The notes under the pieces: generated by a model | What the model was told of the DNA's origin: nothing | What the model saw: only the letters and a program-made list of their open reading frames with translations | Database searches by the model: none | Translations under genes and position numbers: made by a program | From: Luteibacter rhizovicinus | GTDB taxonomy: Bacteria; Pseudomonadota; Gammaproteobacteria; Xanthomonadales; Rhodanobacteraceae | Assembly (NCBI RefSeq): GCF_004342265.1 | Contig: NZ_SMCS01000004.1 | Location: 388,354-452,353, forward strand | Direction: 5' to 3' | Length of the DNA stretch: 64,000 nucleotides | In this document: positions 19,968 through 24,200 of the stretch, in pieces | How the letters are laid out: every line of letters starts with the position of its first letter | How positions within the stretch are numbered: position 1 is the stretch's first letter

Positions 19968-20372
19968 GTGAACAACATGCTTGCTTACATCCTGATTGTC
20001 TTCGCCGTACTGCAGATGCTCGGCTTGCTGCTGCTGTGGCGCAGGCTCGACGCCAGAACGCCTCTCACGCAACCGGCCGCCTCCGCCCCCGTGCCCGATG
20101 CCGAGCCCGAACGGCGCATCGTCGGTGTGGACGAAGCCGCGCTCATCGGTGTGCTGAAGCGTCTGGAGATTCGCCTCGGCGATATCGAAGACCACGTCCG
20201 CCACGCGCCGACCATGCCGAACGAAGTAGGGCAGACCGCCGACCGCGCCTACACCCTGGCACAGCGCCTTGCCCGCCAGGGAGCTACCGCGCAGCAGATC
20301 GCCGAGACCTGCGGCCTTTCGCTGTCGGAAGCGGAACTGCTACACCGCCTGCACGCAGGCAACCCGTCTTGA
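19968..20372 (+). CDS. DUF2802 membrane-anchored protein
   Basis: A short protein (134 residues from the GTG at 19968) with one N-terminal transmembrane helix (LAYILIVFAVLQMLGLLLLW), a Pro/Ala linker, and a C-terminal helical segment with AYTLAQRLARQGATAQQIAE and CGLSLSEAELLHRLHA, resembling a small helix-turn-helix. DUF2802 proteins occur after cheW in polar-flagellum clusters; in Shewanella, work on SwrD/motility-linked DUF2802 proteins supports a role in motility (recalled, not certain). The start is uncertain: the frame is open from a GTG at 19917 overlapping cheW, with an ATG at 19953; AGGA 7 bp before 19968 favours that site. Confidence 0.75.
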   Translation: MNNMLAYILIVFAVLQMLGLLLLWRRLDARTPLTQPAASAPVPDAEPERRIVGVDEAALIGVLKRLEIRLGDIEDHVRHAPTMPNEVGQTADRAYTLAQRLARQGATAQQIAETCGLSLSEAELLHRLHAGNPS

Positions 20373-20602
20373 GCACACGCTAGCTCAACAGCGCCGCTGT
20401 AGGAGCGCGCTTGCGCGCGAAAGCCAACAAGGCGAGGAAGACGGACTCCCACCTCCGCAAGCCCGGTGTCCTGGCTGCGGATGGCGAACTCATCATCTCC
20501 GCTTCGTTGGCTTTCGCGCGCAGGCGCGCTCCTACAGAGAGCTTGCTGGTCGCGGAATGACCAGCGCAACGCAAGTCGTTGCCACACAAGTGCGAATCGC
20601 AG

Positions 20603-20648
20603 TTATCCACATGCTTATGCAGCGACTATCCACATGCCCTGTGGATAT
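20603..20648. promoter_or_regulatory. DnaA-box-like cluster 1
   Basis: TTATCCACA at 20603-20611 (exact match to the DnaA consensus TTATNCACA), CTATCCACA at 20626-20634, and TGTGGATAT at 20640-20648 (ATATCCACA on the - strand). The last two form an inverted repeat with a 5-bp loop. Binding by DnaA is inferred from sequence only. Confidence 0.6.
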
Positions 20649-20877
20649 CGCGCATTGCCGGAGTTTGCTTTCTGTGGGAGCGCGCCTGCGCGCGAAAGCC
20701 AACAGGGCGAGGAAGACGGATGCTCACCTCCGCAAGCCCGGTGTCCTGGCTGCGAATGGCGAACTCATCATCTCCGCTTCGTTGGCTTTCGCGCGCAGGC
20801 GCGCTCCTACAGAGAGCGTGCTGGTCGCGGAATGACCAGCGCAACGCAAGTCGTTGCCACACAAGTGCGAATCGCAG

Positions 20878-20923
20878 TTATCCACATGCTTATGCAGCGA
20901 CTATCCACATGGCCTGTGGATAT
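20878..20923. promoter_or_regulatory. DnaA-box-like cluster 2
   Basis: Same layout as cluster 1, 275 bp on: TTATCCACA at 20878-20886, CTATCCACA at 20901-20909, TGTGGATAT at 20915-20923. Confidence 0.6.
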
Positions 20924-21152
20924 CGCGCATTGCCGGAGTTTGCTTTCTGTGGGAGCGCGCCTGCGCGCGAAAGCCAACAGGGCGAGGAAGACGGACCCTC
21001 ACCTCCGCAAGCCCGGTGTCCTGGCTGCGAATGGCGAACTCATCATCTCCGCTCCGTTGGTTTTCGCGCGCAGGTGCGCTCCTACAGAGAGCGTGCTGGT
21101 CGCGGAATGACCAGTGCAACGCAAGTCGTTGCCGCACAAGCGTGCATCGGAC

Positions 21153-21198
21153 TTATCCACACGCTTATGCAGCAACTATCCACACACCCTGTGGATAG
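21153..21198. promoter_or_regulatory. DnaA-box-like cluster 3
   Basis: TTATCCACA at 21153-21161, CTATCCACA at 21176-21184, TGTGGATAG at 21190-21198. Surrounding bases have drifted from units 1 and 2, yet all three 9-mers remain within one mismatch of consensus, and the third changes only in its last base. Confidence 0.6.
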
Positions 21199-21209
21199 TT
21201 GGCGGTGGA

Positions 21210-24200
21210 CTATCTCTCGTACCGGTAGTTGAGGCTTGCGCGATTGAAGTCGGTGGCGCTCTGGGCTTCGAAGTTCCAGCGGTGGCTCAGCAGGTAGCGC
21301 AGGGTAATGACCTGGCCGGGATCGAACAGGCCAACGCCATAGCTGAGGTAGAGGCGTGGCGACAGGTACTTGCCAACGGTGAAGGCCGAACCGCCGCCAA
21401 GGGCGTCGTTGTTCGATACGCCGATATCGTCCACACCGATTTTCGATCCGACGCTCTTCGCCAGCAGATCGCCGGCCGCCGAGCCCAGCGCCTGTGCGGC
21501 CGCGCCGACCATGTTGCCTTCGCCGCCTTTCACCTGCGAAAGAGGTTTACCCGTGACGAGATAGGAGAGCGCATCGGACTGTTCCATGACCGGGTTGGAG
21601 AACACCGTCAGGATAGGACGCCGTGCCGTGCCCGAAACGTACAGACCGACCTTCTGGCCGTCGTTGATCGTGGCGTTGGGATTGAGTGTGCGCGTCGCGC
21701 GGATATTGATGCCGGGATTGTCGATTGGCGTGCTTGCGAACAATAGCTGGCCCTGCTCGATGCGCAGGTCCTGCCCATAGGCTTTGTAAGTACCGTCGAC
21801 GCCGATCTGCCCCTGGCCCGTAGTGACGCGGCCAGGACGTTCGCGTACATCGAGTGTTCCGGTGATGCGACCGTCGATACCAAAGCCGACGAGATGGACA
21901 TGCTGCCCAAGGTCGACGCGCAGGTCGACCGTGATGGGAAGCGATTCGACTATCTGTTCCTGCTGTTTCTCATCCACGACCACGACATCGGACGATGCCT
22001 TGGTCGCACCGGCACCGGGAAGGCGCTCGACGTTGACGTCTGCCATGTCGACACTGAGCTTGCCGGTGACATTCGTCCCTTCGCCGCTCTGGATGATCTT
22101 GATGTCGGGGGAGATCACCGCTTTCGCGGCGGGGATGTCGACCGCGGTGAACTTGCTGCCGCTGATGCCGATCTGCGTGCTCGCACCCTTGCCGAGACCT
22201 GCCGTGCCGGCGATCGTCAGGTTGCCGTCGCCCGATTTAACGGTGCCATCGATGCGATACGTCGTTGCGTCGGAGGTCGTCAGCGTGACGCGACCGTCCT
22301 TCAGCTTCAGTCCCGCACTGGGCACTTCGGCGGCGAAGTTGCCGAGAACGGCCTGGCCGGTAATTGCGGGTTGGGCAACCGTTCCCCCCATCTGGAAGCT
22401 GCCGTCGAGCGCGCCCTTCACCTCGGCGATTTCGCTGGTGAACAACTCGACGAATGCGAGGTTCTTCAGGTGTACCGAAACGCTGCCGCTCAGAGCCTGT
22501 TGCGCACCGGCGATGCCGACATTGCCGTCGAGCGTGCCGCCGTCGTTAAGGCTGGCGCGCACGGTGACGCGTTGATTGCCTGGTGTCAGCTGGGCATTGG
22601 CTGCGAGATTGTCGTAGACGAGTAACGGCTGGTCGGGATGATCCGAATAGGCGATCGACCCATGCGTGGATGTGATGTTCGCCTGACCGCTGAGAGCACC
22701 GGCGGCAGTGCGGCGTACATTGCCATCGCCTTCGATACTGCCTTCTGCCCGCATCGGCAGATCGGACGAGCCCGCCGCGGTGAGCAGCATGGCCACGGGA
22801 ATATGGCGCACACGGTAGTTGCCGTCGAGATTGCCGGCCTTGTCCTGTTTTGCGGCGACGCAAACGAGGGGATCGCCCGCGGTAAGACAGAGATCGCTCA
22901 TGCTCGCGGCGCCGTTGTTCCAGCTGAGCTGGCTGGCATTCTGCAGATGCCAGCGGGGCAGACCCTGCAAATCGAGGTTCAGTGTCGACAGCGTACCGGT
23001 CCACGACGTGTCGCGGAGCGAACCGCTGAGCGCGATATCCGCCGAAAGCGGCTTGCCCTTCGCATCGACGGTGAGCTGGTGCTTTTGCTGGTTTCCGTTG
23101 GCGTGTACAGCGATGCGATCGAAGTGCATGCCGGAGGTCGATACGCCATTCGCATCGATGGCGACATTGCCGCCCGGCTGGCTGATGTCGGGCACGTCCG
23201 CATCGACATGCAAGGCATCGAGTTTATGGTCGGCATAGACCACCGAGTTTCCTCGGATGTTCGCCTTCACCGCCAGTTTGGGCCATTTGCCGCGTACGCC
23301 GATGTCGCCCTCGATTCGTCCGCCCGCGTCGGGCAGCCAGTCGCCGAGGGACGCGATGGCGAGTTTCAGGTCGGCGTCGTTGGCGGTATCGCCGCGCGCG
23401 TCGAGTCGGATGCTGCTGCCGCCGGAGGCGAGGTCCAGGCGACCGTTGACGACCTCGCCCGGCTTCAACGTCAGCGTGCCATTGCCGCGCAATGCGCGTT
23501 TGCGCAATGTACCGTCCAGCTTGCGCAGGTCCAGCGTACCCAGGGGACCGTTTGGCGACATGTTGCCATCGGTCGACAGATCGAGGTTGAGCGCGCCATC
23601 CCATCCGGCCAGCAACTGGCCAGGATCGAAGTTGTTGCCGTTGACCTGGAGTTTCCATGCCAGCTGCGGATCGAGGATCAGCGTTCCCTTCGTGTCGAGG
23701 CTGCCCTTCGGTTGTTTCAGCGTCAGCGCACGGAGTTCGATGACCTTCGGCGTGCCATCGAGATCGAGCGCGAGATGCTGCGCATGGCCAGGCGGTCCGA
23801 TGTCGACGGCGCCGTCGGCGTGGAATGTTTCGGCGCTGCCGCGGACGGCGAGTCCGCCGGCGCTTGCCAGGTCCTGACCGGCTATCTCTGCCGGTATGAG
23901 CACGTCTTTCCAGTCCAGACGCAGATCGGCCGATATGGGCTTGGCGTCCAGCTGGACGGTGCCCCTGGCCGTGAGCGCGCCCTTGAACTGAGGCGAGCCC
24001 ACGCTCAGCTCATCGAGCGTCAGGCGCTTGTACTCGTGGTCGAAATTCGCGCGCAGCGGAGCGAGATGGACGGTATAGGCATTGAGGCCGATATCGCCGG
24101 ATACGTCCGCGCCATAGCGATCGCCATGACCTTGCAGCGACAGACCCAGCGACGCGATGGCGCTTTCGCCCATCAGGGGTTTCGGATCGAAACGCGGTGC

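Follow-up and report, generated by a model that had tools for sequence, protein, structure and literature searches.

Chromosomal sites that recharge DnaA are described in print, as far as we found and within the accessible portions of that literature, for Escherichia coli, where they are named DARS1 and DARS2. DARS1 occupies the gap between bioD and uvrB and lies at about 0.33 of the genome from oriC, DARS2 lying at about 0.20. In the accessible text of PMC11317965, DARS2 is placed upstream of mutH. Both regions were taken from the K-12 record, located by their geometry and then scanned, which returned the boxes of DARS1 at L093:3108, 3122(-) and 3134(-) and those of DARS2 at L092:5136, 5150(-) and 5162(-); as measured, the two are alike, with box I followed after 5 bp by an inverted box II and after a further 3 bp by box III. 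The head-to-head pair of boxes I and II is a prominent feature of DARS in the available part of PMC5742627, and the available part of PMC4245941 gives GnnYAnnnnnTRnnC as the Fis consensus used for DARS2 and reports that both Fis and the core of DARS2 are conserved in those gamma-proteobacteria that are relatives of E. coli. DnaA of E. coli favours boxes that stand 2 or 3 bp apart, the loss of one base pair from a 3-bp gap being tolerated (PMC11317965, accessible sections). In the open-licence literature, which offers partial coverage, we found the element presented below nowhere described, no DARS reported from Luteibacter or Xanthomonas, and nothing that joins Luteibacter with a DnaA box.

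The locus considered here lies in a stretch of 64,000 nucleotides from Luteibacter rhizovicinus (the window) and consists of three direct repeats of 275 bp that together span 20397-21221 on the plus strand (20397-20671, 20672-20946 and 20947-21221; 100, 97 and 87% identity to the first). It is flanked by a DUF2802 gene (plus strand, ending at 20372, downstream of a CheW gene) and by tamB (minus strand, ending at 21210), which converge. Each unit is made of a GC-rich REPIN, recognised by repeat analysis and by its dispersed copies (20397-20537, with inverted REP arms at 20397-20441 and 20493-20537; 20667-20817; 20942-21092), and of a 102-bp DnaA-box module on the plus strand (20547-20648, 20822-20923 and the more diverged 21097-21198), the first bounded by the information content of 128 copies and the other two located by box geometry. 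Motif scans place box 1, TTATCCACA, at 20603-20611 (also 20878 and 21153) and box 2, CTATCCACA, at 20626-20634 (also 20901 and 21176), both on the plus strand, and the inverted box 3, 5 bp from box 2, at 20640-20648 on the minus strand (also 20915 and 21190). Conservation adds a weak middle box on the plus strand, TTATGCAGC, at 20615-20623 (also 20890 and 21165) and a second block, GCAACGCAAGTCGTTGC, at 20566-20582 of the same strand (also 20841-20857 and 21116-21132), whose IHF-like fit is weak; a Fis-type dyad, GGTCGCGGAATGACC, one mismatch away from the consensus in each of the three copies, occupies 20548-20562 (also 20823-20837 and 21098-21112). At no more than one mismatch, TTATCCACA is matched 12 times in the 64 kb against 3.54 expected, a count that 0 of 100 shuffles reach, and nine of the 12 fall in the array (20603, 20626, 20640(-), 20878, 20901, 20915(-), 21153, 21176 and 21190(-)); the three-box geometry with each box at one mismatch or fewer is expected about 6e-9 times per window from base composition alone. 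The earlier note had read the stretch as tandem 275-bp units carrying nine DnaA-box-like 9-mers, the first of each unit an exact consensus match, with no replication gene nearby, and all of this holds: the nine sites stay within one mismatch, the exact matches stand at 20603, 20878 and 21153, and dnaA is on another contig, where the next gene is dnaN (read by eye) and two TTATCCACA sites lie between them. The three 9-mers it listed per unit are there as described, but the weak fourth box, conserved elsewhere, was missing from its count; likewise the GC-rich inverted arms that it saw beside the boxes are present, but they form a separate REPIN and are not part of the box element.

The plan of the module was drawn from 128 Luteibacter copies, all different in sequence, selected by box geometry from 51 stretches (the window and 50 others). 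Counted from box 1, information content climbs at -56 from values close to zero at -57 and further out, and it is again close to zero past +46; between these limits the arrangement is nearly base-exact: a Fis-type dyad from -55 to -41, a second block around AACGCAAGT, three co-oriented boxes with gaps of 3 and 2 bp, and an inverted box after 5 bp, the boxes starting at 0, 12, 23 and 37. Box 1 reads TTATCCACA in 73 copies, TTGTCCACA in 37, TTATGCACA in 15 and otherwise in 3, and the positions that vary are those at which DnaA boxes are loose. The middle site at +12, three mismatches from TTATCCACA, mostly keeps TTATGCA in these copies and varies between groups. Boxes 2 and 3 are separated by 5 bp in 128 of 128 copies, a spacing by which these copies were selected. 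The Fis consensus is matched exactly at -55 in 102 of the 128 modules, with one mismatch in 21 and with more in 5, against a background of 312 matches in 179148 positions (0.17%). In a second family (f2), 33 modules were read, 30 of them found by the model and three identified by their geometry after turning up among lone boxes; an AT-centred 15-bp dyad, with 97% A+T over its seven central bases, begins at -55 in 27 of the 33. The consensus is matched exactly in 4 of the 33, whereas 13 have one mismatch, 12 have two and 4 have three. Given these mismatches, and the one in the window's own dyads, the dyad could belong to a dimeric protein other than Fis. The genome does encode a Fis homologue (C2:467132, 42% identity, E 2.6e-13), a 75-residue piece of which has Fis as its best NCBIfam model, at a score below the cut-off of that model. 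The second block departs from the IHF consensus by 2.8 mismatches on average, mostly two to three. A structured RNA was also considered and rejected: none of 5 predicted pairs shows two-sided change across 83 copies, and Rfam returned only sub-threshold matches, on the REPIN. Among these, the REPINs at 20389-21105 of the window match MIR1437 with 45-55 bits at a cut-off of 168, which we read as a hairpin artefact.

The unit was sought in relatives, and it is the box module that recurs there. It is found at two further places in its own genome and in 23 of 23 Luteibacter genomes, the own genome included. A sequence-only model built from 83 copies, run with stricter filters, matched 142 of 197 genomes and 23 of 26 genera of the family (Rhodanobacteraceae) at E 0.01, leaving 55 genomes without a match under those filters and with few candidates scored, and 101 of 250 genomes and 31 of 78 genera of the order at E 0.001. 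Many of the order-level matches come from f2, which we take to be the Xanthomonadaceae/Lysobacteraceae from its place in the order; weak single matches in four other families (f8, f9, f10 and f12) may be due to chance. Sister genera share the plan, some with the distance from box 1 to box 2 shifted by 1 bp, and in the modules read there (the longest 36 of 77 matches, in stretches drawn non-randomly from the best-scoring family matches) NCACA stands at the 5-bp gap in 36 of 36 and CCACA in 31. Luteibacter sites carry from 1 to 6 modules; among the best 150 of 186 matches, 33 of the 37 f2 loci have one listed match and 4 have two. Some sites recur, with MiaA beside the array in 9 genomes and SucD in 4, and the DUF2802-TamB site of the window is common to one other Luteibacter genome (L126), where it holds a single module. 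Of 63 copies from two groups of orthologous arrays, 52 are closest to a copy in another genome, so that tandem copies stay distinct across speciation; the window array is younger than those, its units 1 and 2 being 97% alike with a REPIN in each. The spacing of arrays gave no support to helical phasing (vector lengths 0.17-0.31 for periods of 10-11 bp). A scan of named genomes with a pattern lacking box 1 yielded 39 stretches, 28 from Luteibacter and 11 from elsewhere; 10 of the latter lack a box where box 1 would be, and by eye no Fis dyad was seen in any of the 11. The exception is a Geobacteraceae contig (L171:5850-5900) that has all four boxes, at 0, +12, +23 and inverted at +37, in the geometry of the module, and in which three ORFs were checked and had no DnaA or DnaN domain. 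A related box group occurs in Oxalobacteraceae (Massilia and a relative; L149, L157 and L179), that of L149 upstream of xseA.

Read on the opposite strand, the module opens with box 3, which is followed after 5 bp by the inverted box 2, after another 2 bp by the weak middle box and after a last 3 bp by box 1, and at the level of sequence box 3 is the counterpart of DARS box I, box 2 that of box II and the middle box that of box III less one base pair, box 1 being an extra, strong fourth. As in DARS1 and DARS2, a box is set opposite to the next two across a 5-bp gap, the third box lies on the strand of box II, and the position is non-coding; as in DARS2, where core, IHF region and Fis site follow one another, the module has core, block and dyad in that order, the predicted Fis site beyond the core fitting less well in f2 and the block, though conserved, standing mostly 2-3 mismatches from an IHF consensus. 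There are also differences: the gap between II and III is 2 bp instead of 3 and leads to a weak box, the strong box 1 is displaced outward by 11 bp relative to DARS III, an IHF site is not evident, everything is held within 102 bp whereas the Fis site of DARS2 begins about 110 bp beyond its core, and the module occurs in tandem arrays (in Luteibacter) and at several loci per genome. Its gaps of 3 bp (box 1 to middle box) and 2 bp (middle box to box 2) recall the E. coli double DnaA boxes, set 2-3 bp apart in the accessible text of PMC11317965, from which it differs in having three boxes in a row and an inverted one. Since the inverted pair, the 5-bp gap, the orientation of the third box and the succession of core and Fis site are shared, the module most likely works like a compact DARS, although the 2-bp spacing, the weak middle box and the poor IHF fit speak against it. 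We give a probability of roughly 0.45 to the reading that it is an element of this type which would bind ADP-DnaA and help the exchange of ADP for ATP, tandem copies raising the dose. DnaA would bind boxes 1, 2 and 3 and be relayed through the weak middle box; boxes 2 and 3 would seat two molecules head to head, arranged otherwise than in a filament as has been proposed for DARS, and these would release ADP; Fis, bound at the dyad, would aid this release in growing cells and so tie the module to growth; and several modules would add up, copy number setting the strength. Because 33 of 37 f2 loci are single among the best 150 of 186 matches, dosage by tandem copies would be no general rule.

The alternative that survives best, though we consider it unlikely, is a sink, in which arrays would bind DnaA tightly, by titration or in the manner of datA, and lower the amount of free or ATP-bound DnaA once replicated. 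Up to six strong-box modules occur in one stretch, and a sink would favour tandem repetition. Of the 49 exact TTATCCACA sites in five f2 genomes, 36 are accounted for by the region within 20 kb of dnaA (9), by a pair linked to priA (10) and by the modules (17), a tally that counts for the DARS-type reading as well. DnaA-box clusters of this kind are cited for two other bacteria in the available part of PMC5742627. The module resembles datA and the clusters of Bacillus subtilis and Streptomyces in being a non-coding group of DnaA boxes away from oriC, and differs from them in its fixed plan, its Fis-type dyad and its distance from oriC. A sink would need neither the 0/12/23/37 geometry nor a conserved weak middle box nor a Fis-type dyad, and datA acts through an IHF site between its DnaA boxes 2 and 3, for which the module, with gaps of 3, 2 and 5 bp, has no room. 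Besides, among the best 150 of 186 matches, f2 modules lie at 0.24-0.50 of the genome from dnaA, which is late for a sink; datA of E. coli lies nearer oriC.

Location and orientation bear on an improbable second alternative, that of a polar mark on the chromosome whose action, in a terminus or segregation function, would depend on which way it faces the fork. Among 35 single-contig genomes selected for earlier matches (all 35 match), the best 150 of 186 matches form 80 loci, of which 72 are oriented toward oriC, with dnaA as its marker (35 of 37 in f2, 24 of 25 in other Rhodanobacteraceae and 13 of 18 in Luteibacter), and the direction of flanking genes is unlinked to this. The binomial test gives p = 5e-14, which is too strong a figure because orthologous loci are counted more than once and some genome sizes are rounded. 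Once modules, the dnaA region and the priA pair are set aside, the lone TTATCCACA sites left in five f2 genomes share this lean in 10 of 13 cases, so we do not claim the polarity as specific to the module, and strand composition may explain much of it. The lower share in Luteibacter also weighs against a polar mark, as do those loci of other Rhodanobacteraceae that lie at only 0.04-0.19 of the genome from dnaA. Luteibacter loci among the best 150 of 186 matches stand at 0.16-0.21 (12 of 18), 0.25 (one) and 0.31-0.39 (five), and their resemblance to the positions of DARS in E. coli may be a coincidence. In two genomes (G331, C1:1375812/1509387; G391, C1:1561009/1685833) the modules reverse their direction at less than half a genome length from dnaA, and this reversal may mark the real terminus.

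A switch by which DnaA would control the transcription of neighbouring genes is a shade more improbable still. The genome does hold other DnaA-box groups upstream of genes. Upstream of priA (C2:591340; L053:1329-1363) an inverted pair with a 5-bp gap and a third box 3 bp further on has the exact spacing of a DARS core, and an inverted TTATCCACA pair lies upstream of priA in all five f2 genomes examined (L288-L292), at 0.12-0.16 of the genome from dnaA; such a pair can thus sit near a promoter. It may be that this priA-linked site is the true DARS of the order and the modules have another role, or that both act. Upstream of dnaB (C1:151647; L055:1148-1177) two exact TTATCCACA sites have a partial box between them, an Arthrobacter locus (L158) likewise having boxes beside dnaB, and a DARS-spaced box group lies upstream of argS (C6:13901; L059:990-1024). 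The modules themselves have unrelated neighbour genes, which converge at the window and SucD sites, and the four classes of flanking gene arrangement are about equally frequent among 40 loci (12, 10, 9 and 9, from rough gene calls).

That the module is a mobile repeat, carried by a REPIN or otherwise, with boxes that are incidental, is very improbable and largely refuted. It could be suspected from the 97% likeness of units 1 and 2 and from the REP elements that accompany all three module loci of the genome, the two single ones included (read by eye), and the earlier note had proposed that a REPIN amplified the boxes. A two-unit query finds at least 84 matches on both strands of its own genome (40 of 229 candidates scored), nearly all of them covering the REPIN part only, whereas the box half, used as a query by itself (20541-20671), has five strong matches spread over three loci, namely the array, C3:527988 and C3:80265, the remainder having E-values above 1. 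Of 67 tandem spacings below 400 bp in the 51 Luteibacter stretches, 40 measure 113-130 bp, the others 149-275 bp, and the shorter ones leave no room for a REPIN beside a 102-bp module; amplification of the boxes by a REPIN is thus not supported. It is the GC-rich half of each unit that belongs with the REPINs, as an inverted REP pair with many dispersed copies, and to this half only would the description of a common dispersed repeat with unconserved 9-mers apply; the DnaA-box half stands outside the family, and neither the searches of the own genome nor the Luteibacter spacings show it travelling with REPINs. In the window array the two elements were duplicated together. Conservation, moreover, is limited to the module and peaks at its sites, some syntenic positions are common to several genomes, there are old copies, and the phage and plasmid collections searched gave no module match. 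One viral contig matches a partial pattern of the module. As for the accessory origin that the earlier note had also put forward, for which clustered DnaA boxes might speak, it is scarcely credible, as the lowest GC content over 50 bp is 0.48, within the boxes, with no AT-rich unwinding element, and as the modules are several and scattered with the dnaA region elsewhere. Of that note's interpretation, what stands is a DnaA-box cluster of the datA/DARS kind away from oriC, supported by conservation, geometry and the Fis-type site.

The sequences thus show a fixed plan, a DARS-type pair, conserved sites in two families, long-lived tandem copies and a Fis homologue, and on these grounds the module is a real, conserved element that comes in repeats, has a predicted Fis-type site and resembles DARS more than any other known system. 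A sharply bounded and alignable element of this kind makes it straightforward to ask whether DnaA recharging is general and which spacings matter, and as copy number differs between close relatives it lends itself to testing a dose effect on the timing of initiation. It is tempting, though doubtful, to hypothesize that Lysobacterales tune initiation by the number of compact cassettes that recharge DnaA, every one equipped with a Fis switch and facing the fork in a set direction, beside or in place of the single DARS2 of enteric bacteria, gain and loss of cassettes adjusting the timing. The timing of replication could then depend on the number of modules that a genome keeps.
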